Shown one piece after another: positions 24,777 to 64,000 of a stretch of 64,000 nucleotides of DNA. Where the stretch lies: contig OZ020314.1 in NCBI GenBank assembly GCA_963971305.1, positions 1,984,001 to 2,048,000 on the forward strand. Direction: 5' to 3'. Below the pieces are notes generated by a model, which was not told where the DNA came from, ran no database searches, and was given only the letters and a program-made list of their open reading frames with translations. Numbering within the stretch: the first letter of the stretch is position 1; each line of letters opens with the position of its first letter. This DNA comes from Arcuatula senhousia. Lineage: Eukaryota > Mollusca > Bivalvia > Mytilida > Mytilidae. Made by a program: the position numbers and the translations under genes.

Positions 24777-24785
24777 CCTATATAG

Positions 24786-25012
24786 CTAGTACAAACAGTT
24801 TGTATACGATTTGCTGTGTGGCTATTCGTACAAACAGCTTTTTTCATCCAATCAAAATGCTCATTTACTAATTAAAGTTGAGAAAATTGAAGAATTGAAA
24901 TTAAAATAATGTACACTCTAGCGCAAGAATGTATATTTAAAACAAACAACAAACAAACAAACAATAATTCAGAGACTTTTTGCGTTTGCTTTTTTATTGG
25001 AGGGAAAAAAGG
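24786..25012. repeat. 227-bp block duplicated inside the foldback element
   Basis: CTAGTACAAACAGTTTGTAT through TTATTGGAGGGAAAA recurs almost unchanged at 25672-25899; a shorter piece repeats at 25013-25097. The block is AT-rich with CAAACAAACAAACAA. Confidence 0.85.
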
Positions 25013-25098
25013 CGCAAGAATGTATATTTAAAACAAACAACAAACAAACAAACAATAATTCAGAGACTTTTTGCGTTTGCTATTTTATTGGAGGGAAA

Positions 25099-25637
25099 TT
25101 ATATGATGCCGTTTTGTCTTTATATGATGTCGTTTTGTCATTATATGATGTGGTTTAGTCATTATATGATTTAGTCATTATATGCTGTGGACTTGTAATT
25201 ATATGATGTCGTCTTGTCATTATATGATGTCGTCTTGTCATTATATGATGCCGTCTTGTCTTTATATGATGTCGTCTTGTCATTATATGATGTGAACTTG
25301 TCATTATATGATGCCGTTTTGTCTTTATATGATGTCGTCTTGTCATTATATGAAGTGGACTTGTCATTATATGATGCCGTCTTGTCATTATATGATGCCG
25401 TTTTGTCTTTATATGATGTCGTCTTGTCATTATATGATGTGGACTTGTCATTATATGATGCCGCCTTGTCATTATATGATGTCGTCTTGTCATTATATGA
25501 TGTCGTTTTGTCTTTATATGATGTCGTCTTGTTATTATATGATGCCGTTTTGTCATTATATGATGCCGTCTTTTCATTTTATGATGTCTTGTCATTATAT
25601 GATGTCTTCATGTCATTATATGATGTTGACTTGTCAT
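25099..25637. repeat. 21-bp array, second block in left half
   Basis: About 26 units of the same 21-bp motif, same orientation as the first block. With the flanking 227-bp copies this shows that array plus block was duplicated as one segment of about 890 bp. Confidence 0.9.
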
Positions 25638-27592: not shown

Positions 27593-28037
27593 TCATATAA
27601 TGACTAAATCATATAATGACTAAACCACATCATATAACGACAAAACAATATCATATAATAACAAAACGCCATCATATAATGACTAAACGACATCATATAA
27701 TGATAAGACGGCATCATATAATGACAAAACGACATCATATAATGACAAAACGGCATCATATAATGCTAAGTCCACATCATATAATGACAAGATGACATCA
27801 TATAAAGACAATACGACATCATATAATGACAAGACGACATCATATAATGATAAGACGGCATCATATAAAGACAAGACGGCATCATATAATGACAAAACGG
27901 CATCATATAATGATAAGTCCACATCATATAATAACATTACGGCATCATATAATGACACAACGACATCATATAATGATAAACCGACATCATATAATGTCGA
28001 AACGGCATCATATAAAGACAAAACGACATCATATAAC
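27593..28037. repeat. 21-bp array, right arm, inverted
   Basis: About 21 units of the reverse complement motif (CATCATATAATGACAAAACG). It pairs with the left arm and would form a very long hairpin in single-stranded form. Confidence 0.92.
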
Positions 28038-28340: not shown

Positions 28341-29838
28341 AGGACTTTATTATAACAATACATTTGTACATAATCACCGATGTTTTGAAGTAAGGACTTT
28401 ATTGTAACAATACATATGTCAAGGTTTAGAAGTAAGGACTTTATTGTAACAATATATATGTACATAATAACCAAGGTTTTAAAGTAAGGACTTTATTATA
28501 ACGATGCATATGTACATAATAATCAAGGTTTTGAAGAAAGGACTTTATTGTAACAACAATTATGTACATAATAATAAAGGTTTTAAAGTAACAACTTTAT
28601 TGTTGAAAATAAATGTGCATAATAACCAAGGTTTTGAAGTAAGAACTTTATTGTAACAACACATATATAAATTATAACTTAAGTTTTAAAGTAAGGACTT
28701 TATTGAAACAATACATATGTACATAACAACCAAGGTTTTAAAGTAAGGAGTTTTTTGTAACAATACATATGTATATAATAACCAAGGTTTTGAAGTAAGG
28801 AGTTTTTTGTAACAATACATATGTACATTATAACCAATGTTTGGAAGTAAGGACTTTATTGTAACAATACATATGTACATAATAACCAAGGTTTTGAAGT
28901 AAGGAGTTTTTTGTAACAATACATATGTACATTATAACCAATGTTTGGAAGTAAGGAGTTTTTAGTAACAATACATATGTACATAATAACAAAGGTTTGG
29001 AAGTAAGGAGTTTTATGTTACAGTACATATGTACATTATAACCAATGTTTGGAAGTAAGGACTTTATTGTAACAATACATATGTACATAATAACCAAGGT
29101 TTTGAAGTAAGGAGTTTTTTGTAACAATACATATGTACATTATAACCAAGATTTTGAAGTAAGGACTTTATTGTAACAATACATTTGTACATAATAACCA
29201 AGGTTTTGAAGTAAGTAAGTATTTTGTAACAATTCATATGTACATTTATAACAAGGTTTTGAAGTAAGGACTTTATTGTAACAATATATATGTACGTAAT
29301 AACCAAGGATTTGAAATCAGGACTTTATTGTAACGATACATATGTACATAATAATCAAGGTTTTGAAGTAAGGACTTTATTGTAACAATACATATGTACA
29401 CAATACTCAAGGTTTTGAAGTAAGGACTTTATTGTAACAATACATGTGTACATAATAATCAAGGTTTTGAAGTAAGGACTTTATTGTAACAATACATGTG
29501 TACATAATAACCAAGGTTTTGAAGTAAGGACTTTATTGTAACAGTACATATGTACATTATAACCAATGTTTTGAAGTAAGGACTTTATTGTAACAATACA
29601 TATGTACATAATAACCAAGGTTTTGAAGTAAGGAGTTTTTTGTAACAATACATATTTTATTATAACCAATGTTTGGAAGTAAGGAGTTTTTTGTGTAACA
29701 ATACATATGTACAAAATAACCAAAGTTTGGAAGTAAGGAATTTTTTGTAACGATAAGTATGTGCATAATAATCAAGGTTTTGAAGTTAGGAGTTTTTTGT
29801 AACGATACGTTTGTGCATAATAACCAAGGTTTTGAAGA
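28341..29838. repeat. 51-bp tandem array downstream of copy A
   Basis: About 29 units of roughly 51 bp with AAGTAAGGACTTTATTGTAA, CATATGTACATAATAACC and AAGGTTTTG. Variants with GGAGTTTTTTG alternate with GGACTTTATTG. The same array occurs downstream of copy B at 58458-59397. Open frames on the reverse strand are artefacts. Confidence 0.92.
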
Positions 29839-34945: not shown

Positions 34946-35439
34946 TCCCATTACCTTGGTTTATAAGCCGGACGTCGGGTAAAACAAGCCCTAGATATCC
35001 AATAAGTTGTGAAAAATACACTCCTTTTGCTGGTGTGGTGGTAGATATTTGTACCTGCGTTTTCTATTCTTTTTGAAAAAAAATGTGTTTAATTAGTTGT
35101 GCCAATCGTGATTTCAGTTGTTCATGTAGAATAGAAATGTAAAGTGTGGATTCATCGAAAGTTTTGATGCTGTTACAAGATGAAATTAATTAAGAGCTGA
35201 AAATCTCCATCAGTTTTTTCGAATTCTTAAGAATCCACATTTGATTGACACCATTTCTAAAATAACAACAATCGCAATATTTCTGGAACCCGGATTTAAT
35301 TGCCATAAGTATTGAAGTCAACAGAACTGAAAGAAGTTAAGTGGTACATAAACCTTCTTTAAAAAGCCTTTTCAAACTCTAGGAATTGTGTTGTTTTAGG
35401 TTATAATTCTATATTCTTTACCAAAACATCTTTCAAAGA

Positions 35440-36130
35440 TAAAAAATTGTTACACACTGGAACAAGTTTGCAGTATGCTTGATTTCCTCATTGACAACAT
35501 ATTTGTCACCTTCGGAGGAGAGATATTTCAACAACAAATCGGCATTCCAATGGGCACAAACTGTGCTCCTCTCGCCGATTTGTTTTTATACTCTTACGAG
35601 ACTGAATTTCTTCAGGGACTCGTAAAGAACAAGAAGATGAAAGAGGCAAGGTCATTTAATCTTACATTCAGATATATTGATGATGTCCTTTCTGTCCATA
35701 ACACTTCATTTGGTAAATGGATTCCTTCAATATATCCTCCAGAATTGGAGATTAAAGAGACCACAGAATCAAATTGCTTCACGTCTTTCTTGGATTTGCA
35801 CCTCGAATTTGACCCAGGTGGTCATCTCAGTACAAACATTTACGATAAACGAGACGATTACAATATTCAAATTATATATTTTCCCAATCTACAGAGCAAT
35901 ATACCTACTTCCCCTGCATACGGTGTTTATATTTCACAAGTTATTCGATATGACAGACCTTGCACACATTTCACAGATTTTTTGATCAGACACCGATTTC
36001 TTCGTGACCGACTTTTGGAGCAGGGCTATAAGAAACTACGTCACCTACGATCCCTAAAAAAAATTTTCTTCGTTATCAGGCACTAGTAGAAAAGTTCAAA
36101 ATTGAGTTGAAAGATATGGTAGTTAATTGT
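35440..36130 (+). pseudogene. truncated reverse transcriptase, possibly Penelope-like
   Basis: The open frame at 35475-36086, extendable upstream to about 35440 (YTLEQVCSM), has the RT motifs QQIGIPMGTNCAPLADLFLY (about 35535) and FRYIDDVLS with the catalytic YIDD (35674-35685), then SAYGVYISQ-like sequence. The DD pair is intact, but the 5' half is missing and a frameshift in an A-run near 36055 moves RYQALVEKF into another frame. No endonuclease domain is seen. It is an inactive retroelement piece; I lean to Penelope-like but cannot exclude another non-LTR class. Confidence 0.75.
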
Positions 36131-42721: not shown

Positions 42722-42852
42722 GATAACACATGTTACAGCTGGAATAGGAAAACAGAATCAACAAAAGCAGCTGGATTGTCATTAGTCCATAATGTTGACA
42801 CCAAAAAATACCCAGGGTCTCTATTTTCAACAGGATTGTTATCTGTGCTAGC
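42722..42852 (+). other. predicted 5' UTR part of first coding exon, copy B
   Basis: Two base differences from copy A in 131. The same in-frame TGA before the ATG is present. Confidence 0.5.
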
Positions 42853-43375
42853 ATGGGGAAATCTCAATCCAAGACGGCTAGGGATAGAACGAAAAAGTCT
42901 CAATATGTAGTCACTACTGTTGCCACCAGCAGTTGTCCACCTGTTGTCAGTAGACAAAGTGTTGCCACCAGCACGCCTCAATTTTCAGCCACCGCTAGTG
43001 TTGCCACCAGCAATTCTCCATCTGTAGTCACTAGACAAAGTGTTGCCTCCAGCACTCTTTCACCTTCGGCCACTAGGGTTGCCACCAGCAGTCACCCAAC
43101 TGCAGTCACTAGTGTTGCCATCAGCAGTGCTCATACAGTCACTAAAGTTGCCACCAGCAGTTCCTCATCTGTAGTCACTGGTGTTGTTACCTGCAGTCCC
43201 CCATTTATTGTCTCAAATTTTGCCACCAGCAGTCCTCCATCTACAGTCACCATAGTTGCCACCAGCAGTCCTCCATCTACAGTCACTAGTGTTGCCACCA
43301 GCACTCTCCCACCTGCAGCCTCTAATGTTGCCACCAGTAGTTCTCAAACCACTAGTGTAGGAACTGACACATCAG
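42853..43375 (+). CDS. Copy B coding exon 1: Ser/Thr-rich VATSS repeats
   Basis: By direct comparison I find no base difference from copy A across 541 bp from the ATG, while nearby intron DNA differs by 1-2%. The two alternative donors (43375 and 43393) are both kept, including the one that would create a stop. Confidence 0.7.
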
Positions 43376-46300
43376 GTACTATAACAAATGTCTGTAAGTC
43401 ACAGTCTTTAATTTTAGTGACATTGTAAAATAATTACAAGTCAAGCAAGAAAGACAGTAACCATGTACAACAAAAAAGCACAACATACATACAGTCAGAG
43501 ATGCCACTTAGACAAGTGACCAAAATTTAACTTCTTAAAAGTTATTAAAAATTTACTTGATATAGTAAAGTATTTTTTTCTGAACACAAATTTGCTTACA
43601 TGTATATGTACACGGGTAAACTTGAAAATCTTGGAGCTCATTTTAATTGTTACACAGTATTGTTACAATCAAACAGACAATTGGTGTGCAAGGCCTTTGA
43701 AAGTTGCACCATTATGAGAGATCAACATATCTTTGGAAAATGAACATGTACAAGTTTTTTTGGTGAAATACATGAAAATATGTTTTAAATGAAACATTTT
43801 TAAAATCAAAATAGATATATTGTTAAATGAAAGGAAAAAAATCAGTTTAAAAATACATTTATCACAATGAAAAGTTTTAGATTTTGATACCTATAATTTA
43901 TTATTTTGACAATTTTTTTTTGAAAATCATTTTCTTTATTTTGTATTTTTTTTTTTCGAATTGATACATTCAAAATTTTAAAATCATAAAAATCTTAGAA
44001 ATTATAAGTCTGGAACATTTCTGAGAAGTCAAAATAAAAAAAAATATTCAAAGAAAATTAAATTCATTTTATTCATTGATGTTTAAACTGAAGTATATTT
44101 TTTAAGTACCCATACATGTAACAGTGAGGCTTTGAGAAGATTGATGTATGAATTGCTTTGTAATAGAAAAATCTGCCAGACATATTTTCTTTCATAATAT
44201 TCCTTTCACATGTAGCTCTATACATGTACATGTAGTATTTGAAACCTTTACCAAAATGAACAACATATTCATGATTCATCTAATGAATTTATCAATCTTT
44301 TTTTTTTCTTTTTTTTTGTAATAAATAAATTCAAAAGATATGATTTTAACTTGCTTTACTTTATGAACTATCATTTTCTTTTCATTTCTTTTTATTCATT
44401 GTTTTCTTTAAATAAACTGTCTTTTATCTTTCACTACACATACTTTTAATTTATCCCCATGAACGAAAGAAATATATAAGTAAAATTTGTGATATTTGAT
44501 TTTAAAGTATTTCAATCATTTACATAATTTCATTTTAGTTCAGTTAATGCAATGAATAAATTTCAAATTAAGATCCTACTTTATTTCTTAAATGCTTTTA
44601 ACTTTTCTGTCTTGTAAATGATAATATAGACCAAAGAAAATTTAGTAATACATAAAACAATTCTGCTTAGTTATAAAAGTTTCAAATACAAATTTCATAC
44701 AGAAGAGAAAAAAATATAACAAAACAAAGTAAAAAAACATCAGGATCTTGACAATATGACGAAAATATTTTTCATGCATTTTTCTTATTTGGTGCAAACA
44801 TAAAAATCAAGGTTTTATTTTACACTACAGTACAAATAACATGTTATAGAGTTCTATATTTATCATAAACTTGATTTAAAAAAAAAGTTTATTAAATTTT
44901 TCAAAATTTAAAATTTTAAAATTCAAATATTTAGTACTCAGTAAATGCATAGATCTGTATATTAATATACAGATCTATGGTAACTGTTATCACTCTATAC
45001 AAAAGCTACAGGTAAAAATACACCTAGTTTTCAATGTGGACCTAAAGATCAATTTCCTGCCAATTAACAGGAAAATTAAATAAACCAACCAGTGGACCAT
45101 GGTTTTATGGCCCCTATAAAACATCAGCAGTGACCATCAGCCCATGATTTATTACCCCAAATAAAAACTCAGCTTTCAGTGCATTGGAGATGCTCAGCAT
45201 GGGTAGTTGTATGCTGAAAGTTGTACTGTAGATGTGATTTGGGTAGCAATACACCATCAACTAGAAAGTATGTCACTGTGACCTATATTTTACGCATAAA
45301 TGACTATGGTTAAGTTATTTGTTAAGGTCTATAATCGGATACTAGATGTTAAAGGTCAATGACATTTCACCACTAGATTTTTCGTAGCACTACACCATCC
45401 ATTAGAAAATAGGTCACTGTGACCTATATTTACATCAGTTACTCCAATACTAGATGTCGGAGGTCAATGATATTTCATCACTAGATGTGTTTTGGGTAAC
45501 ACTTCACCATCCACTAGAAAGTGGGTCAATGTGACTTATATTTTTTGAATGACTATGATTTAGTTTTTGGTTAAGGTCCATAACTCTGAGATGTTGGAGA
45601 AATCCAAGGTAATAAATGTTGGGTGTCAATGATACTTTTAAAAACAGGAGAGCTCATAGACACATTTTCTAGTTTGCAAATAACCAAATAAGGTGTTGGC
45701 ACAACCTTCATGCAACTTATGTCATGAAATTATCTGATTGAGGTCCATGTTGAAACGTTATGTGCATGCTGATTTTCATTGCTCATTTATATCAGAATTA
45801 GACCCCCTCCCCAATAAAAAGTCCAAAATGGTATGGAGTTTTCTTATTTTGTACAGCTTTATTGGTCAACAAATATTATGTCGCCCCCTACTTTGGTGGG
45901 GAGACATATTGTTTACGTCCTGTCAATCCATTTGTCTGTCTGTCCGTTACAAAGTTTGTCAGCACTACTCCTCGGAAAACTACTGAACCGATTTCAACAA
46001 AACTTAGTGTGTAGGAAGGACATTATATGGAGTTGTGCATATTACCAGGAATTTTTTATCCTTAAATTTGTGTGGAGTTTATTGACCTTTTGAACTTTTG
46101 GGGAAAATGGGGGTGGGGTAAACTTTAATTAATTAACCCTTTCCTTTATATAGACGCCTTTGGACGCCTCTCTGTCATTTTTGTGACCCCCCCTTTTTTC
46201 GGGCCCCTAGAGACTCTGAACCCCTTGTATTAGCATGTTTGAGGCTACTTTAGCAAATAGAGTTGCTAACTAAAAACTTGTCACTTTTTTCGCGCGGTTG

Positions 46301-49300
46301 GCATGGTTGGGGAATAAAAGATGGTCCAAAAATGGTTTTCCTAAAAGGGTAATTTTCCCCTTTTTAGTCAGGGGTTGAAGGGGCAGCAAAACTCCCAGGA
46401 CCGCGGCAATTGCTCCCAAAATTACTTCAAATGTCATATTTTTGAAAATTCAGTCAGAAAACCACTTGACATATTGATAATTTTTTTTTAATTTTTTTAA
46501 AGGAAGGCCATTTTTGGACCTTTTATGGCCAACATTGGTTACCATAGCAACCATGAAAATGGCAGTTTAGACCTGTATCAATAGAATTTGGCCCAAAGAA
46601 TGGTCCAACCAAGTTTTGAAACATTTGGATGAATAATAAAACTTTTACAGCATTTTCAATTTTTTCCCTCATTGCATAGTACATTTTTGGCTAATTTTGA
46701 CCATTTTGTTAATTTGTCTAACTACATCTTTTCACATTTTCAGAACTGATAAAAGTAACAATATCATCTGGGGAGACCACAGTCTTACAGGGAAGTTCAC
46801 TGATCCTGACCTGTACTTTTAATGGAGAGTCTAAACCTTCAGCTGTTCTATGGACCAGATATGGAGGATCTGGGGAGAACATTCAGCTGACTCCAGACAA
46901 ATATAGTGGTGGTACTGTAGATACTCCGTCTCTGACTCTCCATCATGTTAAAGCTGAAGACTCTGGAGTGTATGTCTGTAAATTAACATTTGAGGGTGAC
47001 CAAGTCTCCAGCAACCCACTGACAATCAATGTTGGTAGGTTTACTTTGTATGAAGTACATTGAAACTTGCAGTGTTGTCCATCCATCCCAAATAAATGTA
47101 GCAAGATGGGGTTTTATGTCTTTTGGGCATATTCATTTTAGTATTTAGATTTCCACTTGTTTATGCAGGCTGTGTTCCTCATGTCATTATTTTCTATAAG
47201 TATTAAGATTAATTGTGTTCAAACCAATCAGCCATCATTTGGTGTCCAGCATCTGACGACCCTTGGTTCATAAACTTTTTCAAATGTAAAATCATCTGAC
47301 ACCAAAGAAGTAACAAAAATGGTATAGTTGAATATTAGCATATGTGGTATAAAACTGTCGTTTAGATTTTTTGAATTGTCAAAATATGGCTAAAATGTAA
47401 ACATCCGACAAATTGCTGATGTTTTAAAACGTTATATGTATAAATTCCCCTCTTTTATTTAAAGTGGTAGTACATGTATGAGTTTTATTTTGTCGAAGTC
47501 ATATTTGATTATATGAAGTTCTTATAGGTCTTTACACTTTTATTTTAGATACAACAAGCGCTGTTTTATCTGAAGAAACAAACTATTTAAGGATATACCT
47601 TTTGTGTTTGAACATTGGCACAGATTCTGTCCGCCATTATTTTGATAGCCATGTGCCACCAGGTTCATTACATGGCCATCTTAGCACACATGAACACAAC
47701 TTAAGATATACACAACCAATGAAATGTAACAAGGACCAGCTTAACTTACTCTTCCCAGGTAAATACATTAAATCAAATGTTAGTGAAATTTTAGATCAAT
47801 TGAAGCCTCCTTATATCTAACATTTTTATATTCCCCGAAAACAAATTTTGGGGGTGGTATATAGGAATTACTCTGTCTGTCTTTTTGTCCGTCCATCCAT
47901 CCATCCGTCCCTAGATTAATTTCCTTCACAGATTTCTCAGCAACTACATGACCCAGAGGTCTGATATTTTGCATATAGTTTTATCCTATAGTACCGTGTG
48001 GTGTATACCAATTTTATGCTCCTAGGTCTAGAACTCTATGTTTACCACATACTTAGGTTTTTACACATATAGAATGAAAACGATTACAGATATAGAAAAC
48101 CTTTTTCGTGCTTAAAAATACATGTTAAAAGGCTTTACAAAAGTGTCCAATAGGTCGAAGGGATTTCCCCTTTTAGTTTTGGGCTCATAAAATGTAAAAC
48201 TGTTAATTTCCAGATAACGAAAAAAAAATTGCTGGCTAAAATGTTCAACTTCAGAAACTTCACAAACCTCTCCATAAATTTTACTCAAGTCAAATCTACC
48301 TGCATGACAAAATTGTCAACTAGCAAATCTTTTAAAGTTTCTGCTCTGCCAAATGAAGATTTACAATTTGAACACACAAAGAAAATAGAAATATCTGATA
48401 TCATTATGTTTTGTAGCTATACCAATGTTGCCTGCGTCATCAACATTTGATTTCTCGCTCCTCTATAAGTTGACCAGAAATACATTAAATGTCACCCAAC
48501 CAGCTCGAGGTTGGGGATTCCCTCCACAGGCCAGTGATATATCAGATGAAGATGATGTGGAGCGTATCAGAAAGTATAGGAATCTCTTAGCTCATATTGA
48601 GCATTGCAAAATAGAGCAGGGTGTCTTTAGTATCATGTGGACTGAGCTCAGCCAGGTAAGTAACTAGTACAAATCAAAGTGCTAAAGCGTTTAAAGGCAA
48701 GCGAAATATATATAAGTGCTATAGTAGATTTATTCTCTGTTAAAGTTTATTGATCAAATATTTGCAAAATAATTAATGAGAAAAGAAGGGATGGTCAAAT
48801 GCAGATGCTCTCAACGTAAATGAACACAATACAAAAATTGAATCAATTGAAACATCCCTTCGATTAAAATGGACTCGTCCCATTGATGTGTATTTTGTAT
48901 TAAATTTTATGAATGAGCCCAACAGAATCCTTGCATTGACCAATCAAATAAGAGAAATAACCAATGAAGTAATAGATGAATACATAATGTATATGCTATC
49001 TCCTCTAACTAAATAATTCATCAAGTAAAATGCAAAGGAATAAACAAAACTTGTGCCGGTCATGTGAAATGCCAATAAAAATAGAAATTTATAAAAGTGT
49101 GTTTCATGTTAACAAATATTGAAAAGTAATATAGAAAATAAAGCTTTTTGCCTGACTGGATGCAGGAAAATCACTCCGTCTAGACTGAAAAAAAAACGTG
49201 AAAATCTTCACTACTCTATAGACTACATAAGGCTTTGCTAGCCTTGCCCCAAAATTGAAGCATTCAAGGTGTCATCGCATAGTCCACGCACCACCCTAGG

Positions 49301-52300
49301 GGGACACTAGGTTTAGCAGTGCAAGGACCCACGGGACAATGCGGGTGTGGCGTGGCATTCTAATATCAGACAAAACAACAAGTTTTAACAATTGATATAA
49401 ACAAAATTCAATATTAAAAACAATAACAAAAATGATTCAAAGTTGAAGATTTCACAAAGTCCAAAGTTTAGAATTTCACAATTAAATTTGATTCAAAGTC
49501 CAAATGAAATATTTAAAAGTCCAAAGAATAAAAGTTAGCACAGTTTCGAAAGTCCAATAAATTTGAGTTGAATGCTGCTGCGGTGGCGGGTTGGTCCAGT
49601 CTTGTTCATGTCCTGAAGTCACTCTTTGTCAGCAGCCAGAATGTTTGACTGTCACCGCTGCCCCGTATAGCACGTGTGGAATCCTCACGGTGTCATGTGT
49701 ACGAACTTACTGCTGTTTCTTTGATTGGGTCATGAATTTATATGATGGACTGAAAAGAACTCATTTTGAAATATTTACCCTAATTTACAAAGTTTCATAA
49801 AACAAGAAAAAAATTTAAATTAATACTCAGCTCAATGTCAAATTACATGAAAAATCAATCAACAAAAATCTATTCTTTAAAACCCTAATTAGATAGAAGT
49901 AAAAATTAATAAGTAATTTTACTCAAGCTTATTTTGACACTTAATATATTTAGTTTAACTAAGTAAAAATAAAATCTAAATTTGATTTTATAAAAATCAG
50001 AAAAATAAAGAATTAAATTACATATCAATATTTTAACAAAAACTGTCCCTATTCCAAAGGTATAAAAACCCTATGTGTTAAGCCTAAAACATTTAGCTCA
50101 TAGTCAGACAGAATAAAAGAGATATAAAAACAATTAGACATGATGATCCTTAACAGTGCTGTGAATTGTGAAATTTTGATGTAATATAACTTATCACCAT
50201 AGGGATTTTCCTAATGCATTTTGGTTATTTGTCCCTAACCATTTTAAAAAAGGGAAAAAACGGACAGAGCTGTTGTTGAAAAAGTGTACAAATCATGTCA
50301 AAGGGCAATAAAATGTCATAAATTTGGGCAAAAAAACCCAAGACATAACTGGTTGAGTGATGATAACAACCAAGGTAGGTCTGTCGATCTACGTCATAAG
50401 CGCAACTCCTCTTATAGTGCTTGATGGATTTTGATGAAACTTGATGTGATCGTTTTGCAAGAGTTAAGTGGAATATGAATTACTTGAAAAAGTATAATAG
50501 CTAGGAATCAGATACTTAAGAAATGATGAATTAAACTAGGGTTATCTGACCTCAGATTTTGAATTGATTGTGTTCAGTCTTTTATGGTTAGTCTGTTTCT
50601 CAATGATAGAAGCGAAGAGGCACCAGGGTGTCAAAAGTCAACAAGAACATCACAGGAAAACACAAAACACAATATTAACTGAACAGAAATCAACAAGTGA
50701 ACCCAAGTCATAACTAGAGTGAACTCAGGTGCGCCGTAGGAGTAAGCAGTTCCTGTCTGCTATAGCATATCGTCGCTTTGCATATTCTCAATTCAGTGTG
50801 TCAAATCCAGTAAAGGCAGACCGAACAAAACTCCATGACAAACCAAGATCTGCACTTATCTGCGAGATAGAAATCAATCAAGAATCACTTTGGTTGGTTC
50901 ATAGGAAAATGCGCTCAGTCAATTACCAAATGACCTTGACATTTCTTTACCTTTGAATCCCAAAAGCATATCTTTAAAAATCCTCAAATAATTCATGCAT
51001 TTAGATTTGCAATATCTTCAACAGGCAATACAGAGATTGAGCAAAGGATCCTTAACTACTGAAGTAAACGATTTAGAACACAGAAGACTGGACCAAGATA
51101 TCAGAAGTCAAATGGTGGAAGATATCCTACAATTTAGGAAAGATGTAAAAGATTTACAGCAAGAGGTTGAAGACATAATAAAAAGTCAGCAAGACCAACA
51201 AGCAAGAATAGAAAGTCTGGAGGCTCGGCCAGTTCCACAACATATACCAAAACACATCAGAGGTAAGAATTATTGGTCCATAGGAGTGATGATGATTTGT
51301 TGTAATGGGAACTTTACATGTTCTAATGTTTGCGAGTCAAATTTTTCATCTTCCTGGAAAACAGTTTTTTTCTGGTATGATTATTGAGTTTTAAATCAAC
51401 GTCACTTTGCAAAAACCATAAAAGCCCTGTAGTTTAACATTATTGTATAAACTAGTTGCTTTACTTGAGTTGATGTTTCTAATTGCAAGAAGCAAAGGTG
51501 TACCAAAGGTGTACCATAGGTGCAATCAAATATTGTTGTTAACTCTAATCCTGAAAAACAAACTTGGTACACATAAAATCATCAGAAAAAAACAAACAAC
51601 ACAAACAACTACCAAACCACAATCAGCAACACAAACCCAAGACAGTTGTAATATTTTGTATACCCCTCTTTATAGAAGAGATTGATATACTGTTTTACCT
51701 GTGCCTGTCTCTAGTTCTGTGATTCCATAGTTTTACCTGTGTCTGTCTGTAGTTATGTGATTCCATAGTTTTACCTGTGTCCGTCTGTAGTTATGTGATT
51801 CCATAGTTTTACCTGTGTCCGTCTGTAGTTCTGTGATTCCTTAGTTTTACCTGTGTCTGTCTGTAGTTCTGTGATTCCATAGTTTTACCTGTGTCCGTCT
51901 GTAGTTCTGTGATTCCATAGTTTTACCTGTGTCAGTCTGTAGTTCTGTGATTCCATAGTTTTACCTGTGTCTGTCTGTAGTTCTGTGATTCCTCAGTTTT
52001 ACCTGTGTCTGTCTGTAGTTCTGTGATTCCATAGTTTTACCTGTGTCAGTCTGTAGTTCTGTGATTCCATAGTTTTACCTGTGTCCGTCTGTAGTTCTGT
52101 GATTCCATAGTTTTACCTGTGTCAGTCTGTAGTTCTGTGATTCCATAGTTTTACCTGTGTCTGTCTGTAGTTCTGTGATTCCATAGTTTTACCTGTGTCC
52201 GTCTCTAGTTCTGTGATTCCATAGTTTTACCTGTGTCTGTCTGTAGTTCTGTGATTCCGTAGTTTTACCTGTGTCTGTCTGTAGTTCTGTGATTCCATAG

Positions 52301-55300
52301 TTTTACCTGTGTCCGTCTGTAGTTCTGTGATTCCATAGTTTTACCTGTGTCCGTCTGTAGTTCTGTGATTCCATAGTTTTACCTGTGTCCGTCTGTAGTT
52401 CTGTGATTCCATAGTTTTACCTGTGTCCGTCTGTAGTTATGTGATTCCATAGTTCTGCCTGTGTCTGTCTGTAGTTCTGTGATTCCATAGTTCTGCCTGT
52501 GTCTGTCTGTAGTTCTGTGATTCCATAGTTTTACCTGTGTCTGTCTGTAGTTCTGTGATTCCATAGTTTTACCTGTGTCTGTCTGTAGTTATGTGATTCC
52601 ATAGTTTTACCTGTGTCTGTCTGTAGTTCTGTGATTCCATAGTTTTACCTGTGTCAGTCTGTAGTTCTGTGATTCCATAGTTTTACCTGTGTCTGTCTGT
52701 AGTTCTGTGATTCCATAGTTTTACCTGTGTCTGTCTGTAGTTATGTGATTCCATAGTTTTACCTGTGTCTGTCTGTAGTTCTGTGATTCCATAGTTTTAC
52801 CTGTGTCTGTCTGTAGTTATGTGATTCCATAGTTTTACCTGTGTCTGTCTGTAGTTCTGTGATTCCATAGTTTTACCTGTGTCAGTCTGTAGTTCTGTGA
52901 TTCCATAGTTTTACCTGTGTCTGTCTGTAGTTCTGTGATTCCATAGTTTTACCTGTGTCTGTCTGTAGTTATGTGATTCCATAGTTTTACCTGTGTCTGT
53001 CTGTAGTTCTGTGATTCCATAGTTTTACCTGTGTCCGTCTGTAGTTCTGTGATTCCATAGTTTTACCTGTGTCCGTCTGTAGTTCTGTGATTCCATAGTT
53101 CTGCCTGTGTCTGTCTGTAGTTCTGTGATTCCATAGTTCTGCCTGTGTCTGTCTGTAGTTATGTGATTCCATAGTTTTACCTGTGTCTGTCTGTAGTTAT
53201 GTGATTCCATAGTTTTACCTGTGTCTGTCTGTAGTTATGTGATTCCATAGTTTTACCTGTGTCTGTCTGTAGTTCTGTGATTCAATAGTTTTACCTGTGT
53301 CTGTCTGTCTGTCTGTAGTTCTGTGATTCCATAGTTCTGCCTGTGTCTGTCTGTAGTTATGTGATTCCATAGTTCTGCCTGTGTCTGTCTGTAGTTATGT
53401 GATTCCATAGTTTTACCTGTGTCTGTCTGTAGTTCTTTGATTCCATAGTTCTGCCTGCTTTCTTTCCCCTTTTTTGTTAACTTATAACTCATCTATTTTT
53501 TGTTACAAGCTTGATATTGACATGATGCATAATGGGATATCTTTCTAGATCAATCAGATATTTACTTTCAGTTAAATAAAAACTTAATTTTTTCCGCCAA
53601 AGTTTAATTCCGTCCCACTTTTTGTATGATTATAACTCTGCAGCTATTACTCCTAGTTTGCTTATATATGATAACAAACTTGGTATGTACACCATGTATA
53701 GTGAGATATGATTTAGGATTCATTACACATCTACTGCTTGTTTATCAAAAATGAAAAAAAATCTGTCACACTTTTCATTCACTTGGTGTATTATTCAGCA
53801 ACTATTACGCCTAGGTTGCTGAAAATCCATGTAAATTCATAATATAGTGGGAGTAAAAAAGATTAATTCTTTCTGATGGTGCCGGCAGGGGAGATATACT
53901 TTAGTGTTAACTCTTGTTTAGATCTATCAGACATCTACTTCCTGTTAACCATTTACTAAATTTTTCTGTCGAACTATTGTTTAAATTCCATCACACTTTT
54001 CATACATGAACAGCAAAATATTTGCAGATGAATTATGGTATGATGTTGTTGTTTTTCAGATGGCCAGATCACTCAGCTAGATGCATGGGCAGCAGAAAAT
54101 TTGGTGTTCTACAGTGAAACAGCAGCTGTAAAAGAAGTTACAGATAAAATCAACCAACATCAGATTGTGACAATAATAGGAGGTCCTGGAGCTGGGAAGA
54201 CAAGCATTGCTAGACATATAGCCCTGGAATATCAGAAACAAAAATTTGAAGTGGTACCCATTTGTCAACTAGAGGACATTATTCAGTTTGGTGACAAATT
54301 TGTGTCTCAGGTTTTTGTACTTGATGATGTGTTAGGTGTTTTTTCTTTTGATGTATCATTGTATAACAAATTGAATAACATTAAAACCAGTATTTTGTCA
54401 GCCATATGTAAACAATCAAAACTTATTTGTACTAGCAGAACTTTAGTGTATAATCAGGCTTACACAGTTGGTAGTTTTGTACTAGAAAATGTTATTGATG
54501 TTGAGAGTAAGTCAAATCAGTTAACTGTATCAGACAAGATTAATATATTTAAAAACCACTGTACTAACAAAGATGTTAAGGAAAAGTTTGATCACCTATC
54601 ATTTGAGAACTGTCATTTTATGTTTCCATTGTTATGTAGAATTTTTGCAGCATCAGATAAGCATTTAAAGAATCCCAAAGCTTTTTTTGATCACCCAGTG
54701 GAGTGTGTTAAAGATGAACTGGACAAAATGGCTGAATTCCAGAAAACACAATATGCAGTTTTGGTCCTCTGTATGATAAATCTCAAGAAAATATCAAGCA
54801 CGAACAAACCTTTGACATCCATCAATAAGGATTTAACTAGTGCCATCTTTGACTCATGCAGTGATTCTTCTAACCCAACTAACAGCCAGATTAACCAAGC
54901 ACTACAACATTTATCTGGAACATACCTCACTAAATCTGGTGACCACTACACATTTATCCACGACACTATATATGAAATTGTTGCCTACCATTTCGGAAAA
55001 CAACATGTGGAACTCATGATAGAATACACGTCCAGTACCTTTGTTTGGAACAAACTTGTTATATCAGGAGCAGAATTAGTTGATCAACTCAGCATTGAAG
55101 TAACAGAAGACATGTATCCATTATTAGCCGACCGACTGTTGAAAGATATAGAAGATGGAAGGCTGTATGATGTATTTACCAACACTGTTCTCTCTCATAG
55201 ACCTTTTGTTGATGTCTTCATGAACAATCTAAAGAAAAAGTTGTCATATCAACAATTCAAAGAAATGTTTCTTACAGTAATGGAAGGTGATTTAGACCAC

Positions 55301-56722
55301 ATAACACAACAGAGTAAAAAGATGGCAGTAAACAAGGAAGAGGGTACTTGTAATTATGATGAAGAACAACGTCAGAGGCTGTTGTTAGGGCAATATAACT
55401 GGTCTAAATATTCCATACGTATTATCAGCTTCATTATATACTATGGACATAGTCATCTTTTACAGTGTATCATAGATTATGTCCTCAGTGAACATGGTAC
55501 AGTGACATCTGTTATTGGATCAGACTTATCAGAACAATCACGGTTACTTACCTTGGCAGTCTACAGTGGTAATGAAGATGTTTTACAGGTTTTATTGACG
55601 TTTACAGAAAGTAATGCTGTTAATGTATCAGCAATGGGTGATGGTACGGATCGTTACAATAATGATCATAGACAGCATACACCACTAACAGCAGCGTGCA
55701 ATGTTGGTAGCATGTCTGCTGTTAAGATTCTTTTAGAGATGAATGGAAAAGTTAACCCTGAAAATAAACATTATTACACACCTTTGGTAGAAGCAGCAAA
55801 GAAAGGACACCTTGATATTGTTTCCTTCTTGGTTAACCATGGTGGGGATGTGAACCTCTGTACTAAGTATAATGAATCACCTTTGTACACTGCAGCCAGG
55901 GGAGGACACCTTGATATTATTTCCTTCTTGGTTAACCATGGTGGGGATGTGAACCTCTGTACTAAGTATAATGAATCACCTCTGTATACTGCAGCAGGGG
56001 AAGGACACCTTGATATTGTTTCTTGCTTGGTTGAACATGGTGGGGATGTGAACCTCTGTACTAAGGATAATGAATCACCTCTGTATACTGCAGCCAGGGG
56101 AGGACACCTTGGTATTGTTTCTTGCTTGGTTAACCATGGTGGGGACGTGAACCTCTGTACTAAGTATAATAAATCACCTCTGTACGCTGCAGCCAGGGGA
56201 GGACACCTTGGTATTGTTTCTTTCTTGGTTGAACATGGTGGGGATGTGAACCTCTGTACTGAGTATAATGAATCACCTCTGTACACTGCAGCAATGGAAG
56301 GACACCTTGATATTGTGTCTTTCTTGGTTAAACATGGTGGGGATGTTAACCTCTGTACTGAGGATAATAAATCACCTCTGTACACTGCAGTAGGAGGAGG
56401 ACACCTTGGTATTGTGTCTTTCTTGGTTAACCATGGTGGGGATGTGAACCTCTGTGATGAGTATAACAGATCACCTCTGTACATTGCAGCATGGGAAGGA
56501 CACCTTCATATTGTTTCCTTCTTGGTTAACCATGGTGGGGATGTGAACCTCTGCACTGAGGCTAATAGATCACCTCTGTGGGTTGCTTCATTGAATGGAC
56601 GTTATGATATTGTTAGATTCCTGCTTGAGAATGGAGGAAAAGTTAATCACGGGAAATCTCCAATTGATGCAGCAAGAGATCGAGGACATTTCAACATTGT
56701 AGAACTTTTACAAAAATACTAA
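42853..56722 (+). CDS. Copy B: intact Ig-HEPN-STAND NTPase-ankyrin NLR-like receptor
   Basis: Coding exons 42853-43375, 46744-47034, 47549-47758, 48417-48655, 51025-51262 and 54060-56722 sum to 4164 nt, an open frame of 1387 aa. Domains: MGKSQSK start and VATSS repeats (1-174), Ig (175-271), DZIP3-type HEPN with RNLLAH (272 to about 435), coiled coil (to 500), STAND NTPase with Walker A at about residue 541, winged-helix-like FIHDTIYEIVAYHFG, and ankyrins from about 980 to the end. No signal peptide or membrane span is visible. The layout matches animal and fungal NLR-like sensors: effector, NTPase switch, repeat sensor. Catalytic RNase activity and ligand are unknown. Splicing is inferred from consensus sites with consistent phases (1,1,1,0,1) and conservation between copies. 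Confidence 0.85.
43376..46743 (+). other. Copy B intron 1
   Basis: The same content as in copy A: 32-bp palindrome at 44948-44979, degenerate tandem repeat at about 45230-45640 with AGGTCACTGTGACCT at 45411-45425, and the CTGTCTGTCCGT repeat at 45880-46110. No extra exon is seen. Confidence 0.6.
46744..47034 (+). CDS. Copy B coding exon 2: immunoglobulin domain
   Basis: Same length as in copy A (291 nt). Differences alter RYQESGED to RYGGSGEN plus three further residues and the first one; the cysteines, tryptophan and EDSGVYVC are unchanged. The changes fall mostly in a predicted loop. Confidence 0.85.
47035..47548 (+). other. Copy B intron 2
   Basis: 514 bp, collinear with copy A, no gene. 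Confidence 0.6.
47549..47758 (+). CDS. Copy B coding exon 3: N-terminal half of HEPN domain
   Basis: Encodes the same 70 residues as copy A; the only two DNA changes are silent. Splice sites TATTTTAG and CAG|GTAAAT are conserved. Confidence 0.85.
47759..48416 (+). other. Copy B intron 3 with CCGTCC-type repeat
   Basis: Carries the TATTCCCCGAAAAC repeat at about 47827-48010, here with a longer CCATCCATCCATCCG run than copy A. Confidence 0.6.
48417..48655 (+). CDS. Copy B coding exon 4: C-terminal half of HEPN domain with Rx4H motif
   Basis: RNLLAH at 48578-48595 is unchanged. Two residues differ from copy A (Pro/Thr and Leu/Gln) and the extra Phe-Lys of copy A is absent, giving the more family-like LLYKLTRN. 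Confidence 0.85.
48656..51024 (+). other. Copy B intron 4
   Basis: Collinear with copy A intron 4, including the AAAGTCCAA-rich stretch and a dispersed AAGCAGTTCCTG repeat at about 50630-50920. It has small deletions relative to copy A, for example 24 bp near 49616. Confidence 0.55.
51025..51262 (+). CDS. Copy B coding exon 5: end of HEPN domain and coiled coil
   Basis: 238 nt as in copy A; substitutions Gly/Asp, Lys/Arg, Ile/Ser and Lys/Gln keep the heptad character. Confidence 0.8.
51263..54059 (+). other. Copy B intron 5, enlarged by a minisatellite
   Basis: Apart from the 38-bp array it matches copy A intron 5, with the older degenerate repeat at about 53480-54010. The acceptor TTGTTTTTCAG lies directly after the sequence where copy A has an extra stretch of about 100 bp. 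Confidence 0.65.
51693..53448. repeat. 38-bp minisatellite, about 46 units
   Basis: The unit is TTTTACCTGTGTCTGTCTGT then AGTTCTGTGATTCCATAG, with point variants. Copy A has one unit at the same intron position (19833-19870). Reverse-strand open frames within it are artefacts. Confidence 0.95.
54060..56722 (+). CDS. Copy B coding exon 6: STAND NTPase and full ankyrin array
   Basis: One exon of 2663 nt encodes the NTPase (Walker A GGPGAGKTS at 54179-54205), the winged-helix-like segment and all ankyrins, ending VELLQKY and TAA. The first 290 residues differ from copy A at about 27 places (roughly 91% identity by eye), more than the other exons. The real start is the acceptor at 54059, not the ATG at 54101. 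Confidence 0.88.
55780..56600 (+). repeat. Copy B ankyrin array, 99-bp tandem units
   Basis: Eight units with HGGDVNLC plus a capping repeat (GRYDIVRFLLENGGKVNH). Units are nearly identical outside positions 2, 3, 5, 10, 13, 14, 18, 22 and 25. A long reverse-strand open frame (55774-56484) is a by-product of the 99-bp period. Confidence 0.92.
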
Positions 56723-58457: not shown

Positions 58458-59397
58458 AATGACTTTATTGTAACAATACATATGTAAATAATAACCAATG
58501 TCTTAAAGTAAGGACTTTATTGTAAAAATACATATGTACATAATAACCAAGGTTTTGAAGTTGGGACTTTATTGTAACAATACATATGAACATAATAACC
58601 AAGGGTTTGAAGTAAATACTTTATTTTAACAATACATATGTACATAATAACCAAGGTTTTGAAGTAAAGACTTAACAATACATATGTAAATAATAATCAA
58701 GGTTTTGAAGTAATGACTTTATTGTAATGATACATATGTACATAATAACCAAAATTTTGAAGTAAGGACTTTATTGTAACAATACATATGTACATGATAA
58801 CCAAGGCTTTGAAGTAAGGACTTTATTATAACAATACATATGTACATAATAACCAAGGTTTTGAAGTAAGGACTTTATTGTAACAATACATATGTACATT
58901 AATAACCAAGGTTTTGAAGTAAGAAATTTATTGTAACAATACATATATACATAATAACCAATTGCAAGGTTTTGAAGTTATGACTTTATTGTAACAATAC
59001 ATATACTAGTATACATTATAAGTAAAGTTTTGAAGTAAGGACTTTATTGTAACAATACATATGTATCTAATAACCAAGGCTTTAAAGTAAGGGATTTTTT
59101 TAACAAAACATATGTACAGAAAAACCAAGGTTTTGGAGTGAGGACTTTATTGTTACAATACATATGTACATTATAACCAAGGTTTTAAGTAAGGACTTTA
59201 TTGTAACAATACATATGTACATAATGACCAAGGTCTTGAATTAAGGACTTTATTGTTACAATACATATGTACAAAAAAACAAGGTTTTGAAGTAAGGACT
59301 TTATTGTAACAATACATATATACATAATTACCTAGGTTTTGAAGTAAGGAGTTTTTTCTTACAATACATATGTACATTATAACCAAGGTTTTGAAGA
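58458..59397. repeat. 51-bp tandem array downstream of copy B
   Basis: About 18 units of the motif seen at 28341-29838. Both arrays end at the same flanking sequence, GAAGAATCWGCTGTTAT. Confidence 0.92.
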
Positions 59398-59865: not shown

Positions 59866-62800
59866 CTTCAGCATCAAAATCTCTACAAAAGTCCTCATTG
59901 AGTCGAAGTTGTCAGATGGCCCCTTAAAGGTGAAAATAGCATTTTTTCATGTTTTTGGTTTATAGAATGAAAACTATGACAAATAGAGAAAAGCTGTTGC
60001 TTGCTTAAATGTTCAGTTCATTTAGCTGTACAAAAGTCTCCATAGGGTCAAAGTTGTCAGATGACCCCTTATAGAGGTTTCAGCCCCTTAAAGGCGAAAA
60101 ATAGTGTTTTTTGCCTATAGAATGAAAACTATTGCAGATAGAGGAAAGCTGTTGCTTGCTTAAATGTTCAGCTCATTTAGCTCTACAAAAGTCTTCATAG
60201 GGTCGAAGATGTCAGATGACCCCTTGTAGGGAAAACAGCCCCTCAAAGGCGAAAAACAATGCTTTTGGCCTATAGAATGAAAACTATGACAAATAGAGAA
60301 AAGCTGTTGCTTGCTTAAATGTTCAGTTCATTTAGCTGTACAAAAGTCTCCATAGGGTCAAAGTTGTCAGATGACCCCTTATAGAGGTTTCAGCCCCTTA
60401 AAGGCGAAAAATAGTGTTTTTTGCCTATAGAATGAAAACTATTGCAGATAGAGGAAAGCTGTTGCTTGCTTAAATGTTCAGCTCATTTAGCGCTACAAAA
60501 GTCTCCATAGGGTCGAAGATGTCAGATGACCCCTTTTAGGGTTACAGCCCCTTAATGCCAAAAAAATAACGTTTTTGGTCTAAAGAATGAAAACTATTGC
60601 AGATAGAAAAAAGCTGTTGCTTGTTTAAATGTTCAGTTCATTTAGCTCTACAAAAGTCTCTATAGGGTCGAAGTTGTCAGATGACCCCTTATAGGGGTTT
60701 CAGCCCCTTAAAGGCGAAAAATAGTGTTTTTGGCCTATAGAATGAAAACTATTGCAGATAGAGGAAAGCTGTTGCTTGCTTAAATGTTCAGCTCATTTAG
60801 CTCTACAAAAGTCTCCATAGGGTCGAAGATGTCAGATGACCCCTTGTAGGGATAACAGCCCCTCAAAGGCGAAAAACAATGCTTTTGGCCTATAGAATGA
60901 AAACTATTGCAGATAGAGAAAAGCTGTTGCTTGCTTAAATGTTCAGTTCATTTAGCTGTACAAAAGTCTCCATAGGGTCAAAGTTGTCAGATGACCCCTT
61001 ATAGAGGTTTCAGCCCCTTAAAGGCGAAAAATAGTGTTTTTTGCCTATAGAATGAAAACTATTGCAGATAGAGGAAAGCTGTTGCTTGCTTAAATGTTCA
61101 GCTCATTTAGCGCTACAAAAGTCTCCATAGGGTCGAAGATGTCAGATGACCCCTTTTAGGGTTACAACCCCTTAATGCCAAAAAAATAACGTTTTTGGTC
61201 TATAGAATGAAAACTATTGCAGATAGAAAAAAGCTGTTGCTTGTTTAAATGTTCAGTTCATTTAGCTCTACAAAAGTCTCTATAGGGTTGAAGTTGTCAG
61301 ATGACCCCTTATAGGGGTTTCAGCCCCTTAAAGGCGAAAAATAGTGTTTTTGGCCTATAGAATGAAAACTATTGCAGATAGAGGAAAGCTGTTGCTTGCT
61401 TAAATGTTCAGCTCATTTAGCTCTACAAAAGTCTCCATAGGGTCGAAGATGTCAGATGACCCCTTGTAGGGATAACAGCCCCTCAAAGGCGAAAAACAAT
61501 GCTTTTGGCCTATAGAATGAAAACTATTGCAGATAGAGAAAAGCTGTTGCTTGCTTAAATGTTCAGTTCATTTAGCTGTACAAAAGTCTCCATAGGGTCA
61601 AAGTTGTCAGATGACCCCTTATAGAGGTTTCAGCCCCTTAAAGGCGAAAAATAGTGTTTTTTGCCTATAGAATGAAAACTATTGCAGATAGAGGAAAGCT
61701 GTTGCTTGCTTAAATGTTCAGCTCATTTAGCGCTACAAAAGTCTCCATAGGGTCGAAGATGTCAAATGACCCCTTTTAGGGTTACAGCCCCTTAATGCCA
61801 AAAAAATAACGTTTTTGGTCTATAGAATGAAAACTATTGCAGATAGAAAAAAGCTGTTGCTTGTTTAAATGTTAAGTTCATTTAGCTCTACAAAAGTCTC
61901 TATAGGGTCGAAGTTGTCAGATGACCCCTTATAGGGGTTTCAGCCCCTTAAAGGCGAAAAATAGTGTTTTTGGCCTATAGAATGAAAACTATTGCAGATA
62001 GAGGAAAGCTGTTGCTTGCTAAAATGTTCAGCTCATTTAGCTCTACAAAAGCCTCCATAGGGTCGAAGATGTCAGATGACCCCTTGTAGGGATAACAGCC
62101 CCTCAAAGGCGAAAAACAATGCTTTTGGCCTATAGAATGAAAACTATTGCAGATAGAGGAAAGCTGTTGCTTGCTTAAATGTTCAGTTCATTTAGCTGTA
62201 CAAAAGTCTCCATAGGGTCAAAGTTGTCAGATGACCCCTTATAGAGGTTTCAGCCCCTTAAAGGCGAAAAATAGTGTTTTTTGCCTATAGAATGAAAACT
62301 ATTGCAGATAGAGGAAAGCTGTTGCTTGCTTAAATGTTCAGCTCATTTAGCGCTACAAAAGTCTCCATAGGGTCGAAGATGTCAAATGACCCCTTTTAGG
62401 GTTACAGCCCCTTAATGCCAAAAAAATAACGTTTTTGGTCTATAGAATGAAAACTATTGCAGATAGAAAAAAGCTGTTGCTTGTTTAAATGTTAAGTTCA
62501 TTTAGCTCTACAAAAGTCTCTATAGGGTCGAAGTTGTCAGATGACCCCTTATAGGGGTTTCAGCCCCTTAAAGGCGAAAAATAGTGTTTTTGGCCTATAG
62601 AATGAAAACTATTGCAGATAGAGGAAAGCTGTTGCTTGCTAAAATGTTCAGCTCATTTAGCTCTACAAAAGCCTCCATAGGGTCGAAGATGTCAGATGAC
62701 CCCTTGTAGGGATAACAGCCCCTCAAAGGCGAAAAACAATGCTTTTGGCCTATAGAATGAAAACTATTGCAGATAGAGGAAAGCTGTTGCTTGCTTAAAT

Positions 62801-62995
62801 GTTCAGTTCATTTAGCTGTACAAAAGTCTCCATAGGGTCAAAGTTGTCAGATGACCCCTTATAGAGGTTTCAGCCCCTTAAAGGCGAAAAATAGTGTTTT
62901 TTGCCTATAGAATGAAAACTATTGCAGATAGAGGAAAGCTGTTGCTTGCTTAAATGTTCAGCTCATTTAGCGCTACAAAAGTCTCCATAGGGTCG
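59866..62995. repeat. 155-bp satellite organised in a 620-bp higher-order repeat
   Basis: Monomers of about 155 bp share GAATGAAAACTATTGCAGAT, GCTGTTGCTTGCTTAAATG and GTCAGATGACCCCTT. A marker variant, CCTCAAAGGCGAAAAACAAT, starts at 60241, 60861, 61481, 62101 and 62721, exactly 620 bp apart, so four monomers form one higher-order unit. The array stops abruptly in mid-monomer at 62995. Confidence 0.95.
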
Positions 62996-64000
62996 ATTTA
63001 AATAAGTCATTTTTAATTTATCTAAGTCATGTTGTGATAACCTTGCATATAAATAACATTATTGTTTTAAATGCTAAAATGAAAATAAAATCATCTAGTA
63101 CATGAAACTTTGTTTCTGAATGTTTGTATATTAGGTTTTGACACCTGTAGGTATTGATAATTGGAATTTCCTGTTTATTTCACCCCAAGTCAGCTGTGAC
63201 TAATTACATTTATGTTTACCTAACCATTACACAGGTACCTGCTGAGAGACAATGACAATAAATTCACATTAACTAACACTTTTAGCAAACCCAGTGGGGG
63301 ATTAGAAAAAGGATGACCTGTAATTTACATGATTATATCACAATTATTTTCAATTAAATTTATGGCTTACATTTAAATACACAACTTCTTTCTTAATAGT
63401 AAAAAAAATGATATTTTTTGTATTATAGAAATTTTAATTTTAATTAATTGATTATAAAGTTCAATTTAAAAGAAAAAAAAAGATAATAGATTAATTAAAT
63501 GTTTTTTCAAACATATTTTTATATAGAAAGTAATTGGAAATATTAAATGATCTTGTTGACTTTTGATTATTTTAATTATTTTGTTGGTTATTGGATGTAC
63601 CACATGATCACTTAAACGTTTGAACTAATATGATTTTTTGCTACTCAGTAGAAATTCTGATTAACTGAAGTAGTCCCCTAATGAAGAGTAGGTGTCTATT
63701 TCAAATAAATAATCCCCAATATCTTTGTTATAAGTTAAGATATGAGTGAAAAAAATTACACACTGTTATAAAACATTGTTCTGAACAATTTAAGACCATA
63801 TGTCAAAAATCGTGAACTTACCCTTTAATTCGTTAGGGGTTTATGGACATTAATTACTATAAAAGGAAAGAAGTTAGGGGTCAAAGGGCCAAAAATGTCA
63901 AGTCCTCGATATAAGCTCCAGTCTGGCAGGTTTTGGACTGTAAAATCTGTTCAATCCTGGGATTATGTAAATAAAGGTAATAACAAAAGTTCCGAACTTG
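62996..64000. repeat. second copy of the 37500-38508 segment
   Basis: Begins TTTAAATAAGTCATTTTTAA right after a truncated satellite monomer (GGGTCG) and follows 37501 onward to the window end with few differences. It suggests a new repeat of the 25.5-kb block. Confidence 0.9.

Follow-up and report, generated by a model that had tools for sequence, protein, structure and literature searches.

Invertebrates have no antibodies, and the means by which filter-feeding bivalves recognize microbes are an open question. A locus of the mytilid bivalve Arcuatula senhousia bears on it: is a single chain encoded there in which a Ser/Thr-rich tail, an immunoglobulin (Ig) domain, a HEPN domain, a STAND NTPase and ankyrin repeats follow one another, and to what kind of system would such a chain belong? 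The DNA analyzed (the window, 64,000 nucleotides) is C12:1984001-2048000 of the 1.036-Gb genome, where C12 denotes contig OZ020314.1. The initial annotation of the window described one gene of six in-frame exons and proposed that it encodes a bivalve NLR-like sensor with an RNA-cutting HEPN effector and an added Ig module. That gene is real, but the account of a single receptor left unmentioned a tandem second copy and a gene family. We consider it likely, with some reserve, that the family consists of tandemly expanded cytoplasmic NLR-like STAND receptors in which ankyrin repeats would sense, nSTAND3 would oligomerize and dimerized HEPN domains would cut RNA. The layout, the domain scores, the exon order in the paralog cluster and contrasting selection among the domains all speak for the sensor originally proposed; its RNA cutting and immune role are predicted from these features.

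The six exons of the downstream copy (copy B, 42853-56722, + strand; Table 1) form one frame, as had been claimed. GT follows exons 1-5 and AG precedes exons 2-6, the junction phases (1, 1, 1, 0, 1) are compatible, and the joined frame is free of stops over 1387 amino acids, with a stop codon that ends at 56722. At exon 1 the donor GTACTA after 43375 was taken, because use of GTAAGT at 43394, which looks stronger, creates a stop at the exon 1/2 join. The open stretch of this exon starts at 42799, directly behind a stop and upstream of the ATG.

The joined protein was searched against Pfam, and domain statements below refer to the best 25 of 34 families at E values up to 0.1. All four families behind the earlier domain calls exceeded their curated cut-offs: Ig_3 (4.8e-11, residues 178-254), HEPN_DZIP3 (PF18738; 1.8e-27, residues 309-449, 96.4 bits vs. 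a cut-off of 27), nSTAND3 (PF20720; 2.6e-29, residues 518-669, 102.3 bits vs. 27.2) and Ank_2 (1.3e-73). This profile search had been suggested beforehand as a check, and it accepted both HEPN and STAND. The expected motifs are also present, namely RNLLAH in the HEPN domain (the Rx4H signature), Walker A (GGPGAGKT) and Walker B (VFVLDD). The ankyrin part of exon 6 has nine Pfam Ank stretches, or about 12 repeats by eye, and contains a 99-bp array at 55804-56579. Residues 17-174 are 46% Ser or Thr, in agreement with the Ser/Thr repeats reported for exon 1, while the reported coiled coil corresponds to a linker that was judged by eye only.

The HEPN_DZIP3 profile matched none of 14 control prokaryote genomes. 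The NTPase part (window 54062-56719) matched PDC-S73, a candidate anti-phage family of PADLOC, at 1.6e-19, which is a bacterial link. In a PDB sequence search the Ig exon retrieved cell-adhesion Ig proteins at the top (MDGA1, NCAM), matches that would indicate an Ig fold and say nothing on function; the HEPN-NTPase part gave weak P-loop matches only (best 0.03; NRC4, 9cc8, 0.073). No transmembrane stretch was found in the copy B protein, its best 19-residue mean hydropathy being 1.47. The MGKSQSK start resembles the N-myristoylation consensus, MGxxxS/T with basic residues. The start MGKSQSKTARDRTKK was read in copies A and B; many further copies match from residue 1.

The tandem second copy (copy A, window 10894-23591, +) has counterparts of all six exons. 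The copies do not differ in exon 1, flanks of 15 bases included (553/553 bases), and in pieces of exon 6 their identity is 92.4 and 88.7%. In copy A, the region behind the NTPase also contains an in-frame insert of ~31 residues.

Both copies belong to a cluster at C12:0.2-3.3 Mb, near one end of the 52-Mb contig. The genome search with HEPN_DZIP3 gave at least 150 matches (150 scored of 266 candidates). The search with the Ig exon (150 scored of 624 candidates) placed at least 49 matches below 3.3 Mb on C12, where 47 were stop-free, and at least 14 of the same family elsewhere (62-76% identity; further along C12, on C1536 and on C1038); the remaining 87 scored matches (29-42% identity) resemble other Ig domains. 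With the NTPase piece, 50 exons of 78-100% identity were found in C12 below 3.7 Mb, three of them partial; this count comes from the piece itself, since the PF20720 genome search scored just 22 of 333 candidates. The 62 matches of exon 1 group at 15 places on C12, with weaker matches on C11. Certain copy pairs may be assembly duplicates. At C12:3117375-3209990, equal-score pairs lie in opposite orientation (3117375+/3147441- and 3178884-/3209990+), representing either a palindromic duplication or an assembly artefact.

These exons keep their order along the cluster. For 45 of the 47 HEPN exons below 3.3 Mb, an NTPase exon follows on the same strand at a distance of no more than 20 kb, and for 33 of the 47 there is also an Ig exon upstream within 15 kb. 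Tail, Ig, HEPN and NTPase occur together in eight cases, the tail without Ig in six, and neither tail nor Ig in six. Among the 45 genes with an NTPase, Ig exons number none in 12, one in 21, two in 10 and three in two. Within 15 kb of a HEPN exon, no NTPase exon was found upstream or on the opposite strand (0/47). Ig exons lie within 8 kb upstream of 31 of the 47; 2000 trials of random placement averaged 3.3 and never exceeded nine. Twenty-nine sequences, comprising 27 fetched loci and the two window copies, were also compared. Wherever found, the exons follow the order Ig, HEPN3, HEPN4, linker, NTPase and ankyrin; an Ig exon was present in 12 of the 29 and an NTPase exon in 18, with five having both, because most of these stretches were cut at ~10 kb. 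Exon 3 was found in 20 copies, 19 of them at 94-100% identity and one at 35%.

The same layout was sought beyond the main cluster, at 21 further NTPase exons (C12, C1038, C1223 and C1536). Eleven have a same-family Ig exon within 35 kb upstream, with a HEPN exon in between in six of the 11, and at ten of these 11 loci the identity to the query NTPase is only 35-38%. The Ig-HEPN-NTPase layout therefore probably did not arise by a recent accident, as judged from these loci, though a span of 35 kb is wide. In this older clade (C12:7.8-8.3 Mb and 14.3 Mb, C1536 and C1038) the Ig domains are 62-69% identical to those of the window and the NTPases 35-38%. Exon exchange between clades is one possibility for this mismatch.

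On the joining of the Ig exon to the HEPN exons, a series of observations weighs against our interpretation. The proposed joining rests on exon phases, on paralogs and on one weak Mytilus predicted protein. An Ig Pfam domain was found in none of 71 database relatives of residues 170-880, nor in any of eight relatives from a two-sequence profile search. The best relatives are proteins of Mytilus, Saccostrea and Crassostrea; the Mytilus proteins P0072 and P0073 have no Ig at E values up to 1, and P0037, P0041 and P0057 start with HEPN. The exception is P0001 (predicted, Mytilus galloprovincialis; 39% identity across 1020 residues), in which an Ig-like stretch precedes HEPN within a single chain. 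That stretch appears to be decayed or divergent: it is without the usual cysteines, its V-set match (0.0088) is below the cut-off, and a phmmer search with the Ig exon among the 71 proteins gave 0.12. A protein search with residues 175-440 returned none of 1651 candidates at E values up to 0.001, a null that was set aside because P0001 aligns there strongly. Outside the main cluster, same-family Ig exons also lie within 35 kb downstream of four of the 21 NTPase exons (opposite strand, 0/21), and 12 of the 45 cluster genes are without an Ig match. Since these 12 lack it, Ig would appear to be dispensable for the core function.

These same gaps, along with three genes in which 8-11 kb separate HEPN exon 4 from the closest Ig, could be expected if an Ig gene merely stood beside HEPN-nSTAND3-ankyrin genes and was only seemingly joined to them. 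Ig-HEPN distances of 8-12 kb may be misassignments. The Ig exon is phase 1 at both ends with AG and GT sites in both window copies; in 12 genes it lies 1.3-1.5 kb upstream of HEPN exon 4 on the same strand, and in none of the 47 cases is an Ig found downstream or on the opposite strand within 15 kb of a HEPN exon. P0001, with its divergent Ig-like stretch, points in the same direction. Based on the exon phases and the repeated order, we regard two or more separate genes as most unlikely. An intact Ig-HEPN-nSTAND3-ankyrin protein is so far limited, among the relatives compared, to the A. senhousia genome. Ig most plausibly serves in binding or docking, as an optional module that has been multiplied in some genes, and the Ser/Thr tail and Ig together are putative variable N-terminal modules.

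Selection differs along the predicted protein. Pooled pairwise omega values were 0.20 and 0.22 for HEPN exons 3 and 4, 0.21 for the linker and 0.21 for the nSTAND3 core, rising to 0.39 for the region following the core and 0.74 for Ig (13 Ig, 19 and 20 HEPN, 17 linker and 12 NTPase sequences). On trees, the nonsynonymous to synonymous counts were 54:22 for Ig vs. 63:70 for HEPN (Fisher P 0.0014), these being parsimony counts on short exons that carry tree error and gene conversion. Between copies A and B there are seven nonsynonymous and two synonymous changes in Ig, two and three in HEPN, and four and three in the linker; omega is 0.29 for the NTPase with the following part and 0.92 for ankyrin. 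From these ratios, the HEPN domain and NTPase core are evidently under purifying selection, with Ig looser. Within the ankyrin repeats, the five most variable of 18 pattern-free positions are 8, 33, 30, 31 and 9 (48 distinct repeats, 12 sequences), and differences there are nearly all nonsynonymous and almost never synonymous. They match five positions randomized in DARPin binders.

The RNxxAH motif (RNLLAH or RNFLAH) is intact in all 30 HEPN exon 4 copies, down to 50% identity, and Walker A and B are present in all 14 NTPase copies with a coverage of 70% or more of the query piece. This bears on the possibility that the family consists of mostly non-functional copies spread by tandem duplication, with no immune role. 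Consistent with that are stops in two of 49 cluster Ig matches and in five of 50 cluster NTPase exons, the stop inside the ankyrin array of copy A (22986-22988), and minisatellites in introns and exons. The stops suggest that some copies are decaying. However, the purifying selection, the retained catalytic motifs and the 45 of 50 NTPase exon pieces that are open make a family of mostly non-functional copies very unlikely. The RNFLAH form belongs to a second type of HEPN exon 4 (locus L010, 5861-7285, -; locus L026, 2498-2803 and 3215-3598, +). Its last helix continues into an in-frame tandem repeat of ~20 residues (SFIITDSDYQMKWTELSQAS). This coding minisatellite, which numbers ~20 copies in L010, apparently grew out of the exon end.

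A more substantial alternative keeps the receptor layout and makes HEPN a homotypic docking or dimerization domain that signals to partners as death-fold domains do, rather than a nuclease. DZIP3-type HEPN occupies the place of CARD or DEATH domains in related STAND proteins: the relative P0032 combines CARD (PF00619), nSTAND3 and ankyrin, and N-termini of Pinctada NACHT proteins are often a death domain or HEPN (PMC9646362; for this and the other papers cited, statements refer to the excerpts available). No RNase assay of a DZIP3-type HEPN came up, although no search was aimed at one. On the other side, the R and H of the motif are kept in each of the 30 exons, and typical Rx4-6H motifs occur in 194 of 202 Pinctada proteins (PMC9646362). 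We consider the docking role rather unlikely, if still worth serious attention.

The nuclease receptor that we favor has a tripartite NLR-like layout: the joined frame and the cluster order place an effector, a STAND NTPase and C-terminal repeats on one predicted chain. STAND NTPases switch and oligomerize when their C-terminal repeats bind ligand, and HEPN nucleases act as dimers (Csm6, Csx1, Las1, Ire1). In the receptors described here the ankyrin array, and perhaps Ig, would bind an invader molecule or host signal; the NTPase would then swap its nucleotide and oligomerize, the linker helix would draw HEPN domains together into a dimeric active site, and HEPN would cut RNA so that infection is stopped or the cell killed. 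The Ig modules could serve as a second binding surface or docking site, and the N-terminal tail, possibly myristoylated, might tether the protein to membrane. As copy B has no hydrophobic anchor and Mytilus P0072 starts with one, attachment to membranes in differing ways may be a theme.

Some details of this mechanism are also open to objection. The nSTAND3 name alone is not very specific because its profile matches all 14 control prokaryote genomes, above cut-off in seven. The myristoylation idea rests on two identical copies, and the overall Ig omega is below 1. The ankyrin variability is just supportive, because most ankyrin families vary at surface positions and our search pattern fixed the framework positions.

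More tentatively still, we propose a mollusc-specific, germline-diversified system. It would comprise ~45 or more cytosolic RNase receptors tethered to membrane, and in it an invariant HEPN-nSTAND3 engine would be combined with zero to three interchangeable Ig exons and with length-varying Ser/Thr tails and ankyrin arrays with diversifying binding positions, all supplied by duplication and gene conversion. The basis for gene conversion is that exon 1 is identical between the tandem copies and exon 6 differs by ~8-11%. If true, STAND receptors that form a large and tunable set, each with an RNA-cutting effector and some with Ig modules, would be a concrete and testable answer to the question of recognition in bivalves. 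They would also place Ig domains within the cell, as part of an NLR-like sensor, and would link immunity in animals with the HEPN and STAND components of bacterial defenses against phage.

Table 1. Exons of the two tandem gene copies (window coordinates).
Feature	Position	Strand	Remarks
Copy B exon 1	42853-43375	+	MGKSQSK start, then Ser/Thr-rich repeat tail
Copy B exon 2	46744-47034	+	Ig domain, phase 1-1 exon, Ig_3 4.8e-11
Copy B exon 3	47549-47758	+	First part of HEPN_DZIP3
Copy B exon 4	48417-48655	+	HEPN_DZIP3, RNLLAH motif
Copy B exon 5	51025-51262	+	Linker, charged and Gln residues abundant, likely coiled coil (by eye)
Copy B exon 6	54060-56722	+	nSTAND3 NTPase, following region, ankyrin repeats, stop codon
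Copy A exon 1	10894-11416	+	
Copy A exon 2 (Ig)	14830-15120	+	
Copy A exon 3 (HEPN)	15642-15851	+	
Copy A exon 4 (HEPN)	16505-16749	+	
Copy A exon 5 (linker)	19177-19414	+	
Copy A exon 6 (nSTAND3 + ankyrin)	20623-23591	+	In-frame stop at 22986-22988

The window also holds repeats. A 38-base minisatellite (46 copies, 95% alike, 51692-53457) lies within intron 5 of copy B; in the corresponding copy A intron (19415-20622) no such array reached a score of 400. Downstream of the gene copies there are a 155-base satellite (20 copies, 59950-62996) and a 52-base satellite (27 copies, 28420-29837), with a similar 52-base array at 58461-59396. Repeats of 21 bases at 24361-25637 and 27608-28036 leave several frames open on either strand (SLYDVV type) and are apparently mutually inverted. 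An open frame at 35400-36086 resembles part of a retroelement reverse transcriptase by eye, and had no Pfam match at E values up to 0.01.

How does this family compare with known systems? RNase L has an N-terminal ankyrin sensor, a pseudokinase and a KEN-type HEPN-superfamily nuclease that is activated by dimerization. The comparison with it made in the initial annotation holds for the pairing of ankyrins with a HEPN-superfamily nuclease, but it is a loose analogy, as RNase L has the reverse order, a pseudokinase, a KEN-type nuclease and neither NTPase nor Ig. Membership in an RNase L-like group was ruled out, since in our protein the ankyrins come last and no kinase-like or KEN domain is among the best 25 Pfam families; neither NACHT nor LRR is among them either, which rules out a canonical NACHT-LRR NLR. 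The core order is shared by the Mytilus and Saccostrea HEPN-nSTAND3-ankyrin proteins (P0001, P0002, P0072 and P0073). Unlike the window gene, their printed sequences are without a comparable Ser/Thr tail, P0072 starts with a transmembrane-like stretch and P0002 lists no Ig domain.

Among published architectures, DZIP3-type HEPN has been described in fusion with ankyrin, CARD, NACHT and others, with an expansion in oyster (Anantharaman et al., 2013; PMC3710099). HEPN-NACHT pairing extends to cnidarians (PMC8260672), and HEPN_DZIP3 is among the expanded families of clams (PMC11592408). In Pinctada fucata more than 50 NACHT proteins carry a DZIP3-type HEPN, and NACHT and HEPN genes are enriched in haplotype-variable regions (PMC9646362). 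The Arcuatula family resembles these DZIP3/hRUL138-like HEPN-NACHT proteins of Pinctada and other animals in its N-terminal DZIP3-type HEPN with Rx4-6H and its central STAND-class NTPase (PMC9646362, PMC3710099, PMC8260672), and the Pinctada set also in its C-terminal repeats and clustered expansion in a bivalve. It differs, as far as the excerpts go, in that its NTPase is nSTAND3, its repeats are ankyrin, and Ig and a Ser/Thr tail stand in front. The other likeness is to a group of C. gigas proteins in which HEPN and immunoglobulin repeats occur together with DED-TRADD-N (Kaur et al., 2021; PMC8195603), so that HEPN and Ig also share one bivalve protein, in what is thought to be cell-death immunity. 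Those proteins bear DED-TRADD-N and WD40 or cGAS-like parts; neither DED nor TRADD-N is among the best 25 Pfam families of ours. Ig, HEPN, nSTAND3 and ankyrin in one protein were not found among the papers listed by searches of an open-access library, some of these lists being limited to the best 15-30 papers and most subscription journals lying outside the library. The initial remark that this full combination was not familiar thus stands for the complete set and needs tempering for its parts, as HEPN with Ig and DZIP3-type HEPN with ankyrin or NACHT were already published (PMC8195603, PMC3710099, PMC9646362). The parts and partial pairings are known, and it is the full Ig-HEPN-nSTAND3-ankyrin combination that looks new.

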